Notes under the pieces: model-generated
Told to the model about the DNA's origin: nothing
What the model saw: only the letters and a program-made list of their open reading frames with translations
Database searches by the model: none
Shown: piece by piece, positions 24,596 to 39,657 of the stretch
Numbering within the stretch: position 1 is the stretch's first letter
How the letters are laid out: the number at the start of each line of letters is the position of its first letter
Made by a program: the position numbers and the translations under genes
DNA from: Thermoanaerobacterales bacterium 50_218
GTDB lineage: Bacteria; Bacillota; DSM-12270; Thermacetogeniales; Thermacetogeniaceae
DNA: 60,258 bases
Direction of reading: 5' to 3'
NCBI GenBank assembly: GCA_001508855.1
Contig: LGFL01000006.1
Span: 1-60,258 of the forward strand

Positions 24596-24629
24596 TTACG
24601 TTGCAAAAAATTGAGGAAATTGCAAAGGC

Positions 24630-24872
24630 GATGCTGGGGATAAGTACACTTGGACTGCACCTCCAGAGAGTTGGCGGATGGTGCGAGCCAATGGGCGGTT
24701 CAAGTGGAATCCACCCCTAAGGCAGGCCTCGAAAACCGGTACCTTCCGGGGTAAGGGGCACGGGTGGCCGCCGTTAAGGGCCAGAGAGTGGGTTCCACAG
24801 AGTGTGTGGGACCAAGATGGGTGGCAACGCGGGAACTTCCTCTCGTCCCATTAGTGGGCGAGAGGATTTTTG
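24630..24872 (+). promoter_or_regulatory. Serine T-box riboswitch leader
   Basis: A T-box leader. Stem I has the AAGTAC/GAA loop-E elements, and the triplet directly after GAA is TCC (24710-24712), a serine codon, as specifier. The T-box core GGGTGGCAACGCGG is at 24819-24832; its TGGC would pair with the GCCA end of a tRNA carrying G73. A terminator hairpin follows. Uncharged tRNA-Ser(GGA) would stabilise the antiterminator and turn on the downstream genes, which are all serine-related. That tRNA is encoded at 30216-30311. Confidence 0.92.
24839..24872 (+). terminator. T-box controlled terminator
   Basis: CCTCTCG and CGAGAGG form a stem extended by CCCA/TGGG, followed by ATTTTTG. The 5' arm overlaps the region needed for the antiterminator. 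Confidence 0.85.
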
Positions 24873-30144: not shown

Positions 30145-30172
30145 TTGAAAAATTAGAAAAAGGTGTTATAAT
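30145..30172 (+). promoter_or_regulatory. Internal promoter for tRNA-Ser(GGA), tRNA-Arg(TCG) and ffs
   Basis: TTGAAA and a perfect TATAAT are 16 bp apart with TG extended -10 (TGTTATAAT), between tRNA-Ser(CGA) and tRNA-Ser(GGA). Confidence 0.65.
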
Positions 30173-30215: not shown

Positions 30216-30311
30216 GGAGAGATGGCTGAGTTGGTCGAAGGCGCTCGCCTGGAAAGCGAGTAGGCGGGGCTAAACCCTGCCTCGGGGGTTCGAATCCCCC
30301 TCTCTCCGCCA
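30216..30311 (+). tRNA. tRNA-Ser (anticodon GGA)
   Basis: Acceptor GGAGAGA/TCTCTCC with G73, anticodon loop CTGGAAA, long variable arm, encoded CCA. It reads UCC, the specifier of the T-box at 24630-24872, and its GCCA end fits the TGGC of the T-box bulge, so it is the predicted ligand. Confidence 0.96.
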
Positions 30312-30322
30312 TTATTGTCTTT

Positions 30323-30399
30323 GCGCCCATAGCTCAACTGGATAGAGCGACAGACTTCGGATCTGTAGGTTGGGGGTTCAAGTCCCTCTGGGCGCGCCA
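30323..30399 (+). tRNA. tRNA-Arg (anticodon TCG)
   Basis: 77 nt, encoded CCA. Anticodon loop CTTCGGA. It differs at only a few positions from tRNA-Arg(ACG) at 29193, suggesting duplication and anticodon change. Confidence 0.96.
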
Positions 30400-30419
30400 T
30401 TTCCCGAAAATCGAGATTT

Positions 30420-30688
30420 GGTCGTGCTAGATGGGGAGGTAGCGGTGCCCTGTAACCCGCAATCCGCTATAGCGGGGTCGAATTCCTGCCAGAGGGTAGG
30501 CCTTGTGGGGCTGCCCAGGGTAAGTGGTGAAGACGTCTGGGTCCCATGCAGCGGGAAGCCATGAACCCCGTCAGGTCCGGAAGGAAGCAGCGGTAAGTGG
30601 TGATTCCCGGGTGCCGTGGGGGTGCCTGGATCGAGCTAACTGCCCTGGTTCCGCCTGGAAGGTCGTACTCGAAGGCAGGTGCACGACC
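30420..30688 (+). ncRNA. ffs: Signal recognition particle RNA, large Alu-domain type
   Basis: The conserved helix 8 core (GTCAGGTCCGGAAGGAAGCAGC, given here as a spaced motif around 30569-30590) is preceded by GAAGCCATGAACCCC. The ends GGTCGTGC (30420-30427) and GCACGACC (30681-30688) are perfectly complementary and close the long rod, giving about 269 nt, the size of the Bacillus scRNA with an Alu domain. It lies after tadA and the last tRNA as in B. subtilis. No terminator is visible between it and the trp leader, so read-through is possible. Confidence 0.93.
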
Positions 30689-30705
30689 AAAGTTTTACAA
30701 CTGAA

Positions 30706-30766
30706 TAGAGAGAGCTGAGCTGAGAAGAGTTGAGTTGAGAGGAGCTTGAGATGAGCCTGAGGTGAG
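30706..30766 (+). promoter_or_regulatory. TRAP-binding site in the trp leader
   Basis: Eleven GAG triplets start at 30712, 30717, 30722, 30727, 30732, 30737, 30742, 30748, 30753, 30759 and 30764, with spacers of 2,2,2,2,2,2,3,2,3,2 bases; a TAG at 30706 could be a twelfth. This is the exact architecture bound by the 11-subunit trp RNA-binding attenuation protein. The site overlaps the antiterminator arm and precedes a terminator before trpE. The gene for TRAP (mtrB) is not in the window. Confidence 0.9.
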
Positions 30767-30783
30767 GAATTCGTTCATCAAGC
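30744..30783 (+). promoter_or_regulatory. Predicted trp antiterminator
   Basis: GCTT (30744-30747) and GATGAGC (30750-30756) can pair with GTTCATCAAGC (30773-30783), 11 bp with a 2-base bulge. The 5' arm lies inside the GAG repeats and the 3' arm uses the first four bases (AAGC) of the terminator stem, so the two folds exclude each other. Confidence 0.75.
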
Positions 30784-30816
30784 CAGGGCTTATCTGGGGT
30801 CCTGGCTTTTATTTTT
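30780..30816 (+). terminator. trp attenuator terminator
   Basis: AAGCCAGG (30780-30787) pairs with CCTGGCTT (30801-30808), followed by TTATTTTTG. It lies 20 bases before the trpE start. Confidence 0.85.
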
Positions 30817-30835
30817 GTTTCAAGGGGGGCGTTGT

Positions 30836-32326
30836 GTGTACCTAAAACTAGAAAAATATCTCCCCGTTTGGGAAGAATTTCTGGCTGACACTGAAACACC
30901 GGTTTCTCTTTATCTACGTTTTGGCTATCAGCGTCCAGGCAGCTTTCTTCTGGAGAGTGCTGAAGGTGGGGAGCATCTGGGGAGATACTCGATCATTGGG
31001 TTTGAGCCACTTATGGTCTTCACCTCCAGGGGAAGAGAGATCGAAATAGCTCGTTTCGGAAAAGACGTATCTGAAAACAGCAGATCCCGATTTAAGGCTA
31101 ATCCCTTCGAAGTTATCCGGCAGCTTATGGGCCAATTAACTGAAGCCTCTTTTGAGGAGTTACCCCGATTTGGAGGAGGTTTTGTCGGTTATTTCGGCTA
31201 CGATCTCGTGCGCCACCTGGAGCGATTACCAGAGCTTGCTGTTGATGACCTCCTGTTGCCTGATGCTTTTCTCGTCCTTAATCGGTTTTACCTTATCTAC
31301 GACCACCTCAGACACAGGGTAAAAGCAGTTTGTCTCGTTCCCGCTTCTGGTGGAAGGAAGGGCTTTGAGGAGGCTCGCTCAAGGATCAGAGCTGTTTGTG
31401 ACCAGGTCGCTCACAGTTGTCCAAAGAGGTGGTTGGATTCCTGTTCTGTCGGGGAATTGTTGCTCCGGGATGACCAAGAGATCAGGCCCAATATGACTCC
31501 GGAAGAGTTTGCCACCAGTGTGGAACGGATCAAGAAATACATCACTACTGGTGATGTCTTTCAAGTTGTTTTATCGCAAAGGCTGTCTTTATCTTTTCAG
31601 GGAGACACTTTTGAGGTTTACCGGAGGCTGCGCTCCCTTAATCCATCACCTTACATGTTTTACCTCCACTTTCCTGGTGTCGATCTCGTTGGTTCCTCCC
31701 CGGAGATGCTTGTCCGGGTTGAAGGGGAGAAGATCGAGACCCGTCCCATTGCTGGAACGAGGCCCCGGGGAAGAGATTTTTTGGAAGATCAGTACCTAGC
31801 AAGAGAGTTGCTTGCAGATGAAAAAGAACGGGCTGAGCACTTGATGCTTGTCGACCTGGGACGCAATGACCTCGGTCGGGTTGCCCAACCGGGAAGTGTT
31901 GAGGTTCCACAGTTTATGGAAGTTGAAAAGTATTCTCACGTGATGCACCTGGTGTCCAGTGTCACTGGTGTCCTCGCCCCGGAGAAGACACCCCTGGATG
32001 CATTGGTTGCCTGTTTTCCTGCAGGAACAGTTTCAGGTGCACCAAAGGTGAGGGCGATGGAAATTATCGAAGAGTTGGAGCCGACTCGCCGCGGACCCTA
32101 TGCCGGCGCTGTTGGTTATCTCGGTCTCAACGGAAATCTGGACACTTGTATCACCATCCGCACTTTGTTGTTTTGCCGAGGTAAGGCTTATGTCCAAGTA
32201 GGAGCAGGGATTGTCGCCGATTCCGATCCGGGAAAAGAGTACCAGGAGACACTTGCCAAGGCTGCAGCCCTTCTTCAAGTTTTGAGGGAAGAAGGACGCC
32301 AGAAGAAGCGAATGTCCTGTTTCTGA
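30836..32326 (+). CDS. trpE: Anthranilate synthase component I
   Basis: A 496-residue TrpE, which makes anthranilate from chorismate. The C-terminal catalytic domain has [64 protein letters not shown] and [11 protein letters not shown], all standard. The N-terminal [18 protein letters not shown] is the tryptophan feedback region. GTG 30836 is chosen because GGGGGG lies six bases upstream; an in-frame TTG at 30815 lies inside the terminator tail. No trpG follows, so an amidotransferase must come from elsewhere or be shared with folate synthesis. Confidence 0.95.
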
Positions 32327-32507: not shown

Positions 32508-33536
32508 GTGATGATGAGACGAGTGATTGGCCGGGTCGTGGCTGGTGAGCACCTTGGTGAAGACGAGGCCCGCCAGGTGATGGACCAGATTATGTGTGGT
32601 GAAGCAACACATGCACAGATAGGTGCTTTTCTCGCGGCCCTTGCTGCCAAGGGGGAAACCGTAGAGGAGATCAGTGGGTTTGCGCTTTCCATGCGCCAGA
32701 AGGCGGTAAGTTTAGAAACTAAGCACCCTTTTTGTATTGATACCTGTGGTACAGGTGGTGATGGCAAACACACTTTTAACATTTCTACTGCTGTGGCTTT
32801 CGTGCTCGCAGGTATGGGGATACCTGTTGCCAAACACGGCAACCGTTCAGTTTCCAGTTGCTGTGGGAGTGCCGATGTTCTGGAGGCCCTTGGGATCCAA
32901 ATTAACCTTCCTCCTGAGGCAGTTGCTGCCTGTCTTGATCATGTTGGTGTTGGTTTTCTTTTTGCTCCTGTCTTTCACCAGGCGATGAAGTACGCTGCTG
33001 CTCCCAGGCGCGAGATCGGGATCCGCACTGTTTTTAACCTGCTTGGACCACTGACCAACCCTGCAGGTGCTGTTTATCAGGTGGTTGGTGTTTATGCCCC
33101 TGAACTGACGGAGATCGTGGCACAAGTTCTGCACCGCCTGGGTTGCCGTCGGGCCTTTGTTCTTCATGGTAGTGATGGCATGGATGAGGCAACACTCTCT
33201 GGAACCACGAAGGTAACTGAACTCAATGATGGGATAATCCGCACCTACTACATTACTCCTGAGGATGCGGGGTTGCCTTTCGCAAACCTAAAGGAAATCC
33301 AGGGAAGTGATGCCCGTGATAACGCCAGGATCATTCTTGAGGTCTTTTCTGGGAAACCAGGATCTGCTAGGAATATCGTCCTCTTGAATGCGGCTTTTGG
33401 GTTCATTGCTGCTGGCAAGGCTGCTGATTTGCGTTCAGGTGTGGAGATGGCTGCAGCAAGTATCGATTCCGGAGCAGCCCTCACCAAACTGGAAGAAATG
33501 AGAGAATTTACGAGAAGGTGGATCTCAGATGCTTGA
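32508..33536 (+). CDS. trpD: Anthranilate phosphoribosyltransferase
   Basis: A 342-residue TrpD. The PRPP-binding loop is DTCGTGGDGKHTFNISTAVAFVLAG and KHGNRSVSSCCGSADVLEALG follows; IRTVFNLLGPLTNPA is also typical. GTG 32508 is used, with AAAGGAG upstream; ATG at 32511 or 32514 is possible. A 181-base gap without a gene separates it from trpE. Confidence 0.95.
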   Translation: MMMRRVIGRVVAGEHLGEDEARQVMDQIMCGEATHAQIGAFLAALAAKGETVEEISGFALSMRQKAVSLETKHPFCIDTCGTGGDGKHTFNISTAVAFVLAGMGIPVAKHGNRSVSSCCGSADVLEALGIQINLPPEAVAACLDHVGVGFLFAPVFHQAMKYAAAPRREIGIRTVFNLLGPLTNPAGAVYQVVGVYAPELTEIVAQVLHRLGCRRAFVLHGSDGMDEATLSGTTKVTELNDGIIRTYYITPEDAGLPFANLKEIQGSDARDNARIILEVFSGKPGSARNIVLLNAAFGFIAAGKAADLRSGVEMAAASIDSGAALTKLEEMREFTRRWISDA

Positions 33537-34344
33537 TAAGATTCTCGAACACAAGAGGCAAGAGGTGGCACACCTGAAGACCGTTTTACCCTTGAGTGAA
33601 ATTAAAGAGAGATTAAAAGACCTGCCTCCAGGGCGTAATTTTTACCAAGCCTTACTTGGAAACGGCGTTCAGGTGATTGCGGAGATTAAGAAAGCTTCAC
33701 CTGTGCAAGGTGTCATCAGACCCAGCTTCGAACCGTCTCAACTCGCTCGAGCTTATACTCGCGGTGGGGCCGCGGCGATTTCTGTGCTCACAGAAGAACG
33801 GTTTTTCCAGGGGAGTTTGGTTTATTTACAGAAGGTGCGGGCGAGCACCCCTTTACCCCTCCTCCGTAAAGACTTCCTCGTTGATGAGTATCAGATTTAT
33901 GAGAGCCGCTTACAGGGTGCAGATGCCGTTCTCCTGATCGTGGCAGCCTTGTATCCCTCTGAACTGGAAGATTATCTGGCGATGGCGAGGGAGCTTGGTA
34001 TGGCTGCACTGGTGGAGGTGCACAACGAAGAAGAGGTGCAAACTGCCTTGGAGGCTGGAGCTGAGATCATCGGTATCAACAACAGGGACCTGCATTCCTT
34101 GAAGGTAAACTTGGGAACAACATTGAGGTTGCGGCCGCTGATCCCTGAAGACCGTCTCGTGGTGAGTGAAAGCGGGATCTGGACGCAGGCCGATGTGGAG
34201 ATTCTGGCTGGTGCAGGGGTTGATGCTGTTCTGGTAGGGACTGCTTTGATGAAGGCAGGAGATGTGGAAGCAAAGCTCAGGGAACTCACTTGCTTCCGGG
34301 AGGGAAAAAGCTTTGGTGAAGGTGAAGATCTGCGGGATCCGTAA
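33529..34344 (+). CDS. trpC: Indole-3-glycerol phosphate synthase
   Basis: A 271-residue (beta/alpha)8 TrpC. IAEIKKASPVQGVI (catalytic Glu and Lys), LRKDFLVDEYQIYE, GINNRDLHSLKV and VSESGI are all present. The ATG overlaps the trpD end by 8 bases. It is a separate protein, not fused to trpF. Confidence 0.95.
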   Translation: MLDKILEHKRQEVAHLKTVLPLSEIKERLKDLPPGRNFYQALLGNGVQVIAEIKKASPVQGVIRPSFEPSQLARAYTRGGAAAISVLTEERFFQGSLVYLQKVRASTPLPLLRKDFLVDEYQIYESRLQGADAVLLIVAALYPSELEDYLAMARELGMAALVEVHNEEEVQTALEAGAEIIGINNRDLHSLKVNLGTTLRLRPLIPEDRLVVSESGIWTQADVEILAGAGVDAVLVGTALMKAGDVEAKLRELTCFREGKSFGEGEDLRDP

Positions 34345-34936
34345 TTGGGAAGAAGCGAAGGTGGCTGCTGACTGTGGTGCTGATGCCATCGGCTTCATTT
34401 TTGCCCCCAGTCCGAGGTATATCAGACCTGAAGCTGCCAGAGAAATCATCCTCAAGTTACCACCTTTTTTGACTGTTGTTGGGGTGTTTGTTAATGAGAC
34501 TATCGAGAACCTTCTAGAAATTGCCAGATTCTGCAGGCTCGATGCCGTGCAGTTGCATGGAGAAGAGCCACCAGACTACTGCCAGACCCTTGGTCTGAAG
34601 GTGATCAAAAGCTTTGCGGTCATTGGTGACCAAGTGCCTTCCGAAATCAGCTTTTACAAAGTTGATGCTGTTTTGCTGGATGCTTCTCTGCCTGGAAAGA
34701 GAGGGGGAACAGGGAGAACCTGTAACTGGAAGGTGGCATCCCAGGTTGCTGCGAGTGGGGTCAGGGTGATCCTTGCAGGAGGGCTGACACCCGAGAATGT
34801 GCAACAGGCGATCATGGCCGTCCGGCCCTATGCTGTTGATGTCGCCAGTGGGGTGGAAACTGCTGGCCACAAGGACCCTGATAAGGTGCGCCGTTTTGTT
34901 GATGCTGTGAAGAGTCTCAGGAGTAAAACAGGTTAA
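34313..34936 (+). CDS. trpF: Phosphoribosylanthranilate isomerase
   Basis: A 207-residue TrpF. KVKICGIRNWEEA carries the catalytic Cys, VQLHGEEPPDYC and the Asp-containing LLDASLPGKRGGTGRTCNW and ILAGGLTPENV are family signatures. TTG 34313, eight bases after GGGAGGG, is preferred; GTG 34316 is next. It overlaps trpC by 32 bases, so coupling is likely. Confidence 0.94.
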   Translation: MVKVKICGIRNWEEAKVAADCGADAIGFIFAPSPRYIRPEAAREIILKLPPFLTVVGVFVNETIENLLEIARFCRLDAVQLHGEEPPDYCQTLGLKVIKSFAVIGDQVPSEISFYKVDAVLLDASLPGKRGGTGRTCNWKVASQVAASGVRVILAGGLTPENVQQAIMAVRPYAVDVASGVETAGHKDPDKVRRFVDAVKSLRSKTG

Positions 34937-34960
34937 AAATGCGTTTGGGGGGAGAAAGAC

Positions 34961-36166
34961 TTGGTGTTGCCGGATGAAAGCGGACATTTTGGTCCTTTCG
35001 GAGGAAGGTTTGTCCCGGAGACCCTGATGCCTGCACTACGTGAACTGGAAGAGGCTTACAGGGAAGCCTGCAAAGATCCAAAGTTCCATCAGGAACTCGA
35101 TTATTATCTCCGAAATTACGCTGGCAGGCCGACACCGCTATATTTTGCTGCCAATTTGACTGCTTGCTTAAGTGGGCCGAAGATTTACTTAAAGCGGGAA
35201 GATTTGAACCATACTGGCTCGCACAAACTCAACAATGCCCTTGGCCAGGCTCTGCTGGCCAAAAGGATGGGCAAGAAAAGGATCATTGCCGAGACCGGGG
35301 CTGGGCAGCATGGAGTGGCGACAGCGACCGCGGCAGCCCTCTGCGGCCTGGACTGCGAGATTTATATGGGTGAGGAAGATATCCGCCGCCAGCAACTGAA
35401 CGTTTTTCGCATGCGGTTGCTGGGAAGCAAGGTGATTCCAGTGGCCTCAGGTAGTGCCACTTTAAAGGATGCCATTAATGAAGCCTTGCGCGACTGGGTC
35501 ACCAATGTCTCTAACACTCACTATCTTCTGGGGTCGGTGACCGGGCCTCACCCTTACCCGATGATCGTCAGGGATTTTCAGAGTGTCATCGGGAGAGAAA
35601 CGCGTCAGCAGATCCTGGCTGCTGAAGGCAGGTTGCCTGATGCCATCGTTGCCTGTGTAGGGGGTGGCAGCAATGCCATCGGGATTTTTTACCCTTTTCT
35701 CGAGGATCGCCGGGTTGAACTTTGGGGAGCCGAGGCTGCTGGTCTGGGCCTGGAAACAGGAAAGCATGCCGCTTCCCTGAGTGCAGGTTCACCTGGAGTG
35801 CTTCATGGGGCGTGTTGCTACCTGCTCCAAGATGAAGATGGCCAGGTCAGGCATCCCCATTCTGTGGCTGCCGGCCTGGACTACCCCGGTGTGGGGCCCG
35901 AACACTGTTATCTGAAAACCACAGGGAGGGCGTTTTACGAGGCTGTTACTGATAAGGAGGCATTAGCGGCCTTCCAATTGTTATCTCGCACTGAGGGAAT
36001 CATTCCTGCGCTGGAGAGTGCTCATGCGGTTGCTCTTGCTGTCAGAATTGCTTCCCGGATGCGGGGTGACGAGGTTCTGGTGATCAACATTTCGGGACGC
36101 GGGGATAAGGATGTCCAGGAAGTGGCCATGATCTTGGAAGAAAGGGAGGTTGCCGATGGGTGTTGA
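34961..36166 (+). CDS. trpB: Tryptophan synthase beta chain
   Basis: A 401-residue TrpB1-type beta subunit, which joins indole and serine. The PLP lysine is in [19 protein letters not shown] (about residue 89), with [17 protein letters not shown] and the phosphate-binding [18 protein letters not shown] start with GGGGGGAG upstream. It uses serine, produced by the operon 8 kb upstream. Confidence 0.96.
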
Positions 36167-36977
36167 AAGGATCGTTGCAGCCTTTAAGAAGCCCCAAAAG
36201 ATACTGGCTGTCTATGTTTGTGCTGGTGACCCTGACCTGGAAACAACTTCCCACTTGATTCCTGCTCTTTCTGCTGCAGGTGCTGATATCATCGAGATTG
36301 GGGTTCCTTTTTCCGATCCTATTGCTGATGGCCCTACCATTCAGGCAGCAAGCCAGCGTGCCCTGTCATCCGGGACGAACATGAGAAAGGTCTTGGAACT
36401 TTTAGAAGAGGTGAGATCACGGGATGAAAATTTGCCATTACTCCTGATGACTTATTACAATCCTGTGTTCCGCTATGGTATTGAGGAGTTTGCCGCTCAA
36501 CTTCAGGAAAAGGGGGGTGATGGCCTCATTGTGCCTGACCTCCCTGTTGAGGAAGCGGCGCCTTTGAGATCTGCCTTGCATGAACGCGGTCTCACCCTGA
36601 TACCTCTTGTTGCTCCCACTACTCCGGAAGTGAGGCTGCGAACAATATTAGAAAAAGCTCAGGGTTTTGTTTATTGTGTTTCTCTAACTGGGGTTACCGG
36701 GGCGCGCTCCCGTCTTCCTGATTACCTACGGGATTACCTTCAGATGGTGAGAAAGACCACCGATCTCCCCCTTCTTGTTGGTTTCGGAGTGAGCACACCG
36801 GATCAGGCTGCTCAGCTGGCACCTCTTGCAGACGGTGTTGTTGTCGGGAGTGCACTGATCGAGGCTTTTCGAAGAAGTGGACTTGATGGTGCTGTCAGGT
36901 TGGTTCAGGGCTTGCGGGCAGGACTTGATCTCGATTCAGACGGCCATATCACCTCTGGCAATACCATCAGAGGATGA
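36156..36977 (+). CDS. trpA: Tryptophan synthase alpha chain
   Basis: A 273-residue TrpA. The catalytic Glu and Asp are in [20 protein letters not shown] and the phosphate-binding loop is [17 protein letters not shown] 36156 follows GGGAGG; it overlaps trpB by 11 bases. It is the last gene of the trpEDCFBA operon. No clear terminator follows. Confidence 0.95.
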
Positions 36978-37173
36978 AAAAGTAGCAGGAGCAAGTCAAG
37001 GATAACTGGATCATAAGGAAAGGTGAAGGTGGGGGGATGGGTTGGAGTCTTTAGGTGTTCAGTGTTAAGATGTTATTGTCAGAGATAGACCGCAAGTGAT
37101 CAAAAGGAGAAGGGAAAGCAGGATTGGGAGAGAATTAAAAAGGGAAGCACCTCTTTTGAAGGGGAGTAGAGGT

Positions 37174-38709
37174 ATGGAGTACCAGGCTCTTTACAGGGAG
37201 TGCCGTCCCCAGTTTTTTCGAGATGTTGTTGGACAGGAACACGTTTGCAGAACACTGAAAAATGCCGTGAGGATGAACAGGATTGCTCATGCTTATCTTT
37301 TTTGTGGGCCGCGAGGTACAGGAAAAACGAGTACGGCGAGGATTTTGGCTAAAGCGGTGAACTGTCCTCAAGTCGAAGATGGTGAGCCCTGCAACAAGTG
37401 TCGTTCCTGTCTCAGCATTGTTCAGGGGACTTCGCTCGATGTTGTCGAAATGGATGCAGCTTCTCATCGGGGCATCGATGAGGTGCGCGAACTCAGGCAG
37501 AGGGTTGGTTTTGCCCCAACTCAAGGCAAATACAAAGTTTACATCATTGACGAAGTTCATATGCTCACTGGGGAGGCTTTTAATGCTCTTTTGAAAACAC
37601 TGGAGGAGCCTCCCCAGCATGCCATTTTTATTCTGGCGACAACGGAGGCGCATAAGGTCCCACCGACGATCCTTTCCCGGTGCCAGCGCTTCGACTTTAG
37701 GCCCCTCGGAAGAGAAGTGATTGCTGCTCACCTGAAAAAAGTCGCTCACCAGAAAGGCTGGGAGGTGGAGCCAGAGGCGCTCGAGATTTTGAGCAGACAC
37801 GCCGGTGGAGCTCTTCGTGATGCTCTTGGTCTCCTTGACCAGGCTGCCAGTTTTGCTGGAAACAAGATCACTAAAAGGGATGTGGAAGTTCTCATTGGGT
37901 CACCGGGAGACGATATTCTAGAAGCAGTCATTTCGGCGGTTATGGAAGGAGATGTGGCTGCTCTTCTGAAGATCCTCGAAGATAGTTTTTCCAGAGGAGT
38001 CGAACCGAGAGAATTTCTTTTCCAGCTCACAGATTACGCCCGCCAGTTTCTTTTTCAGGAAGCGGTGTCCGATAAAAAGAGAAAAGTCCTGATTCCTTTG
38101 TTGAAGGTTCTGGCAAAGGCTGATGCAGAGATGAAAGTGAGCAATAGGCCGGATCTCATCTTGGAGCTTAACCTTTTGCGTCTTACTGACTGTTTCTTTT
38201 GGGAGAACGGAAAGGTGGAACCGGGTGACCAAAAAGAAAGTTTGATGCCATCTCGTGTTGTAAAACTGCGTCCTTCTGAGGAACTGCCAGGGGAACTCAC
38301 TGGTTTAAAAAAAGATTTTCCTTCTGGTGACGTGTCCTCGAAGTCGGGAAAAGATGTTCAAATGGTAGTCGAAGATTTCCTCAAAAAACAACCTCTTTTG
38401 AGCCAGTTTTTATCACAGTATGAATTAAGGGTAGAATCAGGTAGAATAATTATTGCAGCACCACCGATAGCGTACGAGTATCTGCAAAAGCCGGAGAACA
38501 GTTCTTTTTTGCAGAAGGCATTGCAAAATGCCGGTTGTTCCTCGAAACTGAGCGTTATCCTCAAAAAGGAGAACTCCCAAACTGAAGAAAGAGAGATTAC
38601 AGAAAGTAAACGAGAAGAAGATCGCACTTCCGGGGACTCTCTAATCGGTGCTGCTTTGGCTATCTTGAAAGGTGAGATTGTTTCTCAGGAAAAGGAGGAG
38701 GATGATTAG
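37174..38709 (+). CDS. dnaX: DNA polymerase III subunits gamma and tau
   Basis: A 511-residue DnaX clamp loader ATPase. Walker A is GPRGTGKTSTARILAKAVNC, the zinc module is CNKCRSCLSI, Walker B is YIIDEVHML and SRC is TILSRCQRF. A C-terminal tau region of about 150 residues follows the clamp loader collar. ATG 37174 (MEYQALYRECRPQFF) follows GGGGAG; the frame is open to 37096 but without family support. No slippery frameshift site for gamma was identified. Confidence 0.95.
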   Translation: MEYQALYRECRPQFFRDVVGQEHVCRTLKNAVRMNRIAHAYLFCGPRGTGKTSTARILAKAVNCPQVEDGEPCNKCRSCLSIVQGTSLDVVEMDAASHRGIDEVRELRQRVGFAPTQGKYKVYIIDEVHMLTGEAFNALLKTLEEPPQHAIFILATTEAHKVPPTILSRCQRFDFRPLGREVIAAHLKKVAHQKGWEVEPEALEILSRHAGGALRDALGLLDQAASFAGNKITKRDVEVLIGSPGDDILEAVISAVMEGDVAALLKILEDSFSRGVEPREFLFQLTDYARQFLFQEAVSDKKRKVLIPLLKVLAKADAEMKVSNRPDLILELNLLRLTDCFFWENGKVEPGDQKESLMPSRVVKLRPSEELPGELTGLKKDFPSGDVSSKSGKDVQMVVEDFLKKQPLLSQFLSQYELRVESGRIIIAAPPIAYEYLQKPENSSFLQKALQNAGCSSKLSVILKKENSQTEEREITESKREEDRTSGDSLIGAALAILKGEIVSQEKEEDD

Positions 38710-39027
38710 GTGGGATTCGGAAACATGCAGAAAATGCTTAAACAGGTTCAGAAGATTCAGGCAGAGATGGCCCGTATTCAGGAAGAGCTTGCGGGCAAAA
38801 CTGTAGAAACTACTGCTGGAGGCGGAGCAGTCAGGGCGGTCGCCAACGGCCAATTGGAGTTGGTGGAGATCAAGGTTGACCCGGCAGCAATTGATCCTGA
38901 AGATCCCGAACTTCTGGAGGACCTCTTGTTGGCTGCGGTGAATGAAGCTTTGAGAAAGGCCCGCGAGATGGTGGCCGAGGAAATGGGGAAGGTCACTGGT
39001 GGCTTGAAGATCCCGGGGCTTTTTTAG
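38710..39027 (+). CDS. Nucleoid-associated protein YbaB/EbfC
   Basis: A 105-residue YbaB/EbfC protein beginning GFGNMQKMLKQVQKIQAEMARIQEELAGK, with the conserved GGGAVRAVANGQLELVEIKVDP and C-terminal KVTGGLKIPGLF. These dimers bind DNA. GTG follows the dnaX stop directly, with AAGGAGGAGG inside the dnaX end. The order dnaX-ybaB-recR is conserved. Confidence 0.95.
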   Translation: MGFGNMQKMLKQVQKIQAEMARIQEELAGKTVETTAGGGAVRAVANGQLELVEIKVDPAAIDPEDPELLEDLLLAAVNEALRKAREMVAEEMGKVTGGLKIPGLF

Positions 39028-39057
39028 TGACTTCTGGAGAAGTGGAGGAATGGAGAA

Positions 39058-39657
39058 TTGAACCTTTACCCTGAGCCTCTTGCTCTCTTGATCGAGTGTT
39101 TGCAGAAACTGCCCGGGATCGGACCAAAAACTGCACAGCGTCTGGCCTTACACCTTCTCCATGTTCCTCTTGAGGAGGCCGAGACCCTGGCACAGGCAAT
39201 TTTAGATGCCCGTGAGAAGGTCTTCTTCTGTTCTGTTTGCGGTAATCTCACAGATGTCGACCCTTGTCACATCTGTCAAGATGAAACCCGCGACCGCTCC
39301 CTGATCTGTGTCGTCGAGTGGCCGAGGGATTTGTTTGCCCTTGAGCGCACCAGGGAGTATCGTGGTCTTTACCATGTCCTCCACGGTGTTCTTTCCCCGA
39401 TGGATGGTATCGGGCCGGATGACCTGAAGATTGCCGAACTCCTCCACCGCGTTAAAGATGGTCAGATTAAGGAAGTGATCCTGGCCTTAAATCCCAGTGT
39501 AGAGGGTGAGGCAACAGCACTTTACCTTTCCCAACTCTTGAAACCACTTGGGGTCAAGGTGACCCGGATCGCTCATGGACTTCCTGTTGGTGGTGAACTG
39601 GAGTTTGCTGATACCGCTACCTTGAGCAGGGCATTTTTAGGTAGAAGCGAGATTTAA
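39058..39657 (+). CDS. recR: Recombination protein RecR
   Basis: A 199-residue RecR, which with RecF/RecO promotes gap repair. The helix-hairpin-helix [17 protein letters not shown], zinc finger [16 protein letters not shown] and TOPRIM domain ([31 protein letters not shown]) are in order. TTG start after GTGGAGGAATGGAG. Confidence 0.95.

Follow-up and report, generated by a model that had tools for sequence, protein, structure and literature searches.

A run of GAG triplets lies between an SRP RNA gene and a tryptophan operon in the 60,258-nt stretch of DNA analysed here (the window), from Thermoanaerobacterales bacterium 50_218, a member of the Thermacetogenium family (Thermacetogeniaceae). 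The arrangement raises the question of whether the run belongs to an attenuator controlled by TRAP, a classic regulator studied chiefly in Bacillus, and, if so, from which promoter an attenuator in this position would be transcribed. From the array, its neighborhood and comparison with relatives, the element is almost certainly a TRAP attenuator, which on its own would be ordinary for this lineage. The reading that unites it with its surroundings, a TRAP attenuator of the trp operon transcribed from the promoter of a tRNA/SRP RNA unit, is one that we hold with good but not full confidence. What is new here is the linkage to SRP RNA and a wider predicted regulon; the leader itself belongs to a known kind.

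Table 1 Features of the tRNA/SRP RNA–trp–dnaX locus in window coordinates
Feature	Position	Strand	Basis
Putative sigma-A promoter, TTGAAA-16-TATAAT	30145–30172	+	Consensus scan 11/12; matrix score 16.4
tRNA-Ser (GGA)	30216–30311	+	ARAGORN
tRNA-Arg (TCG)	30323–30399	+	ARAGORN
Large bacterial SRP RNA, full length	30422–30686	+	RF01854, 217 bits (gathering score 60)
Predicted TRAP-binding array	UAG 30706; eleven GAG 30712–30766	+	Direct reading, scripted chaining, model R1 (E 1.5e-7)
AT1, predicted early antiterminator	30744–30783	+	Folding of truncated leaders
AT2, predicted later antiterminator	30749–30795	+	Predicted pairing 30749–30758 / 30786–30795
Predicted intrinsic terminator (attenuator)	30780–30818	+	Stem 30780–30808, then U-rich tail
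Shine-Dalgarno AAGGGGGG of trpE	30822–30829	+	Sequence; GTG start 30836
trpE	30836–32326	+	TIGR00564 above cut-off
trpD, trpC, trpF, trpB, trpA	32508–36977	+	Pfam and ORF list
dnaX, ybaB, recR	37174–39657	+	Pfam; genes directly after SRP RNA in most relatives examined

The triplet array and its competing structures

About eleven (G/U)AG triplets with 2–3-nt spacers upstream of trpE mark a TRAP-controlled trp attenuator, and the window holds such an array, with GAG starts at 30712, 30717, 30722, 30727, 30732, 30737, 30742, 30748, 30753, 30759 and 30764 and with eight spacers of 2 nt and two of 3 nt. An earlier sequence-only reading of this DNA had described eleven GAG triplets at this spacing, and both direct reading and scripted chaining bear it out. 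Its remark that UAG is absent is true of the eleven themselves, although a UAG at 30706 sits in register 3 nt upstream of the first GAG and allows the chain to be read as 12. The array is far longer than chance provides, as the longest chains in 150 simulated 60-kb windows (third-order Markov copies) were 5 for (G/U)AG and 4 for GAG. Rfam has no TRAP leader family, and its matches in 30690–30850 fall far under their gathering scores. The operon that follows has the gene order trpEDCFBA and lacks trpG, again as first read; Pfam and the ORF list agree, and trpG was found on another contig.

The predicted terminator (30780–30808 with its U-rich tail) has a free energy of −18.8 kcal/mol when folded alone. 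When truncated leaders are folded, AT1 overlaps this terminator by the four bases AAGC (30780–30783). The sequence-only reading had assigned that overlap to the antiterminator, which suits the early structure but misses a second one: in longer RNA, AT2 is predicted to replace AT1 by pairing AGAUGAGCCU (30749–30758) with GGGCUUAUCU (30786–30795). The 3′ arm of AT2 falls within the 5′ arm and loop of the terminator, likewise in several relatives, and in several relatives an AUGAG at the end of the array is complementary to a CUCAU in the terminator loop. In these predictions the terminator folds when the array is constrained to be unpaired and the antiterminators fold when it is free, so that terminator and antiterminator are mutually exclusive, with the antiterminator 5′ arm inside the array. 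The full-length free leader has two near-equal conformations (−39.3 and −38.7 kcal/mol), and because these lie so close in energy the switch would depend on the order of folding and the timing of TRAP, in keeping with the B. subtilis model (PMC3913778). Whole-leader free energies are ordinary relative to shuffled sequences (z of −0.6 and −1.3), and the case therefore does not rest on overall stability. The antiterminator duplex shows no clear win over shuffles in G002, G014, G053, G010, G057 and the trpG leader of the window genome, in part since the automatic terminator finder picked long hairpins, and those six leaders carry no claim. A search downstream of the terminator for a hairpin that could hide the trpE ribosome-binding site gave a weak, 5-bp prediction.

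Taken together with the TRAP gene described below, these features suggest a familiar mode of control. When tryptophan is plentiful, TRAP would wrap the emerging GAG array and block both AT1 and AT2, whereupon the terminator would form and transcription would stop. When tryptophan is scarce, AT1 and then AT2 would sequester the 5′ arm of the terminator and permit read-through into trpEDCFBA.

The leader shares with that of B. subtilis (PMC3913778, PMC4027176) eleven (G/U)AG triplets, 2–3-nt spacers, an overlapping antiterminator and a competing terminator before trpE, along with trpEDCFBA without trpG and an mtrB gene in the genome. It differs in that its array is all GAG whereas that of B. subtilis is mixed, in the second antiterminator that reaches into the terminator loop, and in the detection of neither a promoter near the array nor an anti-TRAP gene in the genome. 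In addition, it follows SRP RNA, and its attenuator lies ~27 nt from the trpE start, while the B. subtilis leader is 203 nt long. The earlier claim that the geometry copies B. subtilis does not hold in full: it does not extend to the promoter, the distance from terminator to trpE or the position behind SRP RNA.

TRAP in the genome and its relatives

The genome encodes TRAP. An mtrB homologue, for which the sequence-only reading had proposed a search, is identified by PF02081 (E 8e-38) and by the NCBIfam MtrB equivalog above its cut-off, and lies between dnaE and accD on a different contig from the trp operon. By sequence, every one of the solved structures closest to this protein is a TRAP, and the KxRG segment is kept in the alignment. 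No anti-TRAP gene was found in the window genome, a draft assembly of 121 contigs that is 94% complete, so that absence is not proof. One anti-TRAP match below the cut-off proved to be the zinc region of DnaJ and was rejected.

Across 61 genomes (the window's own and 60 relatives), mtrB is present in 38. Arrays were sought with R1, a model of primary sequence built from nine arrays of eight relative genomes (seven with mtrB), with the window's array excluded. At E ≤ 0.01, R1 finds a triplet array in 38 of the 38 genomes with mtrB and in 2 of the 23 without it. The eight source genomes match by construction; the association stands with them removed, as arrays then occur in 31/31 genomes with mtrB and 1/22 without. 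The two array-positive genomes that lack mtrB, G007 (410 contigs) and G015 (76% complete), are both of the same family, and the gene may simply be missing from their assemblies. Triplet arrays likewise lie upstream of trpE in many relatives. With mtrB present and these arrays in place, the sequence-only reading survives both of the refuting tests that it had named. The sequence-only reading had found a TRAP leader surprising in a genome outside Bacilli, a view that does not survive the comparison: with mtrB in 17 of 19 same-family relatives, TRAP is rather the rule, and would be a standard device of this anaerobic lineage outside Bacilli. Older surveys of Gram-positive trp regulation reportedly note TRAP in a few Firmicutes other than Bacillus, and we do not claim its first description there. 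Among the papers found, most subscription papers being beyond the search, none describes a TRAP regulon outside Bacilli.

These comparisons also bear on whether the array could be a simple-sequence repeat or the site of another RNA-binding protein, a thought that arises since TRAP binding is itself predicted here. The triplets are kept while the spacers vary, arrays co-occur with mtrB and almost only with mtrB, and in many genomes they sit at tryptophan-related genes, all of which makes such an origin scarcely credible.

Two further arrangements were seen among the relatives. In G057, G039 and G031 (L066, L080, L074) mtrB lies directly upstream of trpE, and by eye the trpE leaders of some others (L071, L077, L079) resemble T-boxes, in part tandem, rather than TRAP leaders.

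Position of the attenuator behind SRP RNA

The trp leader begins ~20 nt past the 3′ end of SRP RNA, of which one copy was found in the assembly. Transcription units of the large bacterial SRP RNA (RF01854) in the same bacterial family share with the window a tRNA-Arg gene followed by SRP RNA upstream and dnaX-ybaB-recR downstream; in the window, however, a complete trp operon occupies the space between SRP RNA and dnaX. In most relatives an intrinsic terminator lies within about 65 nt of SRP RNA and is followed by dnaX, while a few (e.g., L092, L102) show no terminator after SRP RNA. The window lacks this element as well, as no terminator was detected in it between SRP RNA and the attenuator.

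A dedicated promoter for the trp leader, part of a full B. subtilis-type TRAP system, was not found either. A scan for the sigma-A consensus, which non-consensus promoters would escape, gives no site in 30400–30711, where the best matrix score is 2.5 compared with a median of 3.3 for shuffled 150-mers. The sole strong promoter upstream of the leader is that preceding the tRNA genes, probably the promoter of the whole tRNA-Ser/tRNA-Arg/SRP RNA unit. For comparison, promoter scores reach 14–15 for the other three TRAP leaders in the genome and 11–19 for the trp leaders of most relatives. The attenuator could instead be an ordinary one with its own non-consensus promoter overlapping the SRP RNA 3′ end, the position behind SRP RNA being incidental. 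A TACAAC at 30696 might serve as a weak −10 element, and the other TRAP leaders of the genome do have promoters of their own; against this, no site in the 150 nt leading up to the array scores above −0.2, again under the shuffled median, and read-through would be expected in any case because no SRP RNA terminator was found. We regard a separate promoter as unlikely, though it is the most serious of the alternatives weighed here.

Transcription of the attenuator together with SRP RNA is the likely state of affairs. Transcription would start at the tRNA promoter and pass through tRNA-Ser, tRNA-Arg and SRP RNA into the leader, and SRP RNA would be released by processing. As the only strong upstream promoter precedes these three RNAs, and no other terminator is detectable, the attenuator probably also serves to terminate the SRP RNA transcript. 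Most simply read, the trp operon was placed downstream of SRP RNA together with its attenuator, and the tRNA/SRP promoter now drives it. One regulated terminator would then both end a housekeeping RNA and gate an amino-acid operon. A fuller proposal, to which we give an even chance, is that the operon has been captured by the stable-RNA unit: it would have no promoter of its own, the TRAP attenuator would be the terminator of an essential, single-copy SRP RNA, and each SRP RNA precursor would carry a TRAP site, tying TRAP load to growth rate. If this is true, de-repression of trpG-DAHPS-pabB, iorA and trpB2 would be tied to growth rate through the same load.

The junction appears to be rare. 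It did not turn up in any of the 19 further genomes of the order, and a pattern search of 399 genomes of the phylum (exact SRP 3′ motif, 10–40 nt to the array, so that looser arrangements would be missed) gave no convincing second example. Seven other genomes matched the pattern and were taken as probable chance matches, since a reversed control pattern matched about the same number. A joint SRP RNA–trp transcript is not described in the papers found, most subscription papers lying outside the search. A junction unique to one draft in 121 contigs might be an assembly artefact, with an ordinary TRAP leader located elsewhere. Such an error is highly improbable: the upstream tRNA-Arg/SRP RNA and the downstream dnaX-ybaB-recR form one contiguous locus in most relatives, and an artefact would thus need two false joins that return to the same place.

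Attenuators lacking a near promoter exist behind other genes in relatives, after a ferredoxin-like gene in G010 and G004 and after a DAHP synthase gene bearing its own array in G003 and G007. Capture behind SRP RNA would therefore be a small evolutionary step, unusual in its partner. At the other end of the operon, the trpA–dnaX junction (36978–37173) shows no consensus promoter or terminator and one weak site at 37042, and many relatives have a TTGCTA/TTGCTT-17-TATATT site upstream of dnaX. If no promoter or terminator works at this junction, dnaX-ybaB-recR would share the attenuated transcript.

A serine cluster adjoins the trp operon. A T-box leader (RF00230, 109 bits) at 24622–24853 precedes an aminotransferase-serA pair, after which come serS and four tRNA-Ser genes.

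The wider predicted regulon

R1 finds three further sites in the window genome, each with a strong promoter-like site upstream. One array, with a terminator, lies upstream of iorA, the gene for the indolepyruvate:ferredoxin oxidoreductase alpha subunit (the end of the locus truncates the protein, whose score falls slightly short of the family cut-off). A second, also with a terminator, precedes trpG (E 0.012), whose start is ~100 nt downstream of the terminator; a DAHP synthase-like gene comes after trpG, and a second TrpE/PabB-like gene lies farther along the same contig. The third is a weaker array (E 0.06) over the start of trpB2. The predicted targets thus comprise anthranilate/aminodeoxychorismate synthase with a DAHP synthase-like gene, TrpB2 and indolepyruvate:ferredoxin oxidoreductase, and TRAP control of the last would suggest that it works in the biosynthetic direction (indoleacetate to indolepyruvate) in these anaerobes.

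Comparable sites occur in the relatives, where genes were named by tblastn using proteins of the window genome as queries and, for a sample, by Pfam. About ten loci have the array at the trpG operon and about 15 at trpB2 (mostly over the Shine-Dalgarno, the final triplet falling on or close to the start codon). About 13 have it at iorA or paaK-iorA, and for three of these the stretch examined shows only paaK; iorA behind paaK was recognized from partial matches ~1.5–1.9 kb downstream of the site. Five loci have arrays at trpP (PF17099 confirmed in the two checked), a sixth has a weaker TrpP-like gene, and two have arrays at an ABC substrate-binding gene. At these sites too, triplets are conserved and spacers vary.

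The translational targets of TRAP in B. subtilis are trpG, trpP and ycbK (PMC11255114). Arrays over the ribosome-binding site are shared with that set, and the trpB2, trpP and ABC sites of this lineage suggest occlusion of the ribosome site in the manner of B. subtilis trpP (PMC11255114). The trpE, trpG and ior sites look like attenuation; for trpG, with its array and terminator, this differs from the ribosome-site occlusion of B. subtilis (PMC11255114). Neither trpB2 nor iorA/paaK-iorA is named as a B. subtilis target in PMC11255114, and the predicted regulon of the window genome and its relatives appears wider than that of B. subtilis.

Several single loci carry arrays in other settings. G007 and G003 have tandem TRAP arrays (L064, L065), the first upstream of a DAHP synthase gene and the second between that gene and trpE, and a similar pair of sites is present in G011 and G018. 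A weak (G/U)AG array in G053 (L202, G053:C32:2224; E 0.015) precedes the counterpart of the window's aminotransferase-serA pair, a hint that TRAP may control serine synthesis in that genome. Finally, in G030 and G049 (L181, L182) arrays precede DctP-type solute-binding transporter genes, which perhaps serve the uptake of tryptophan or aromatic acids.
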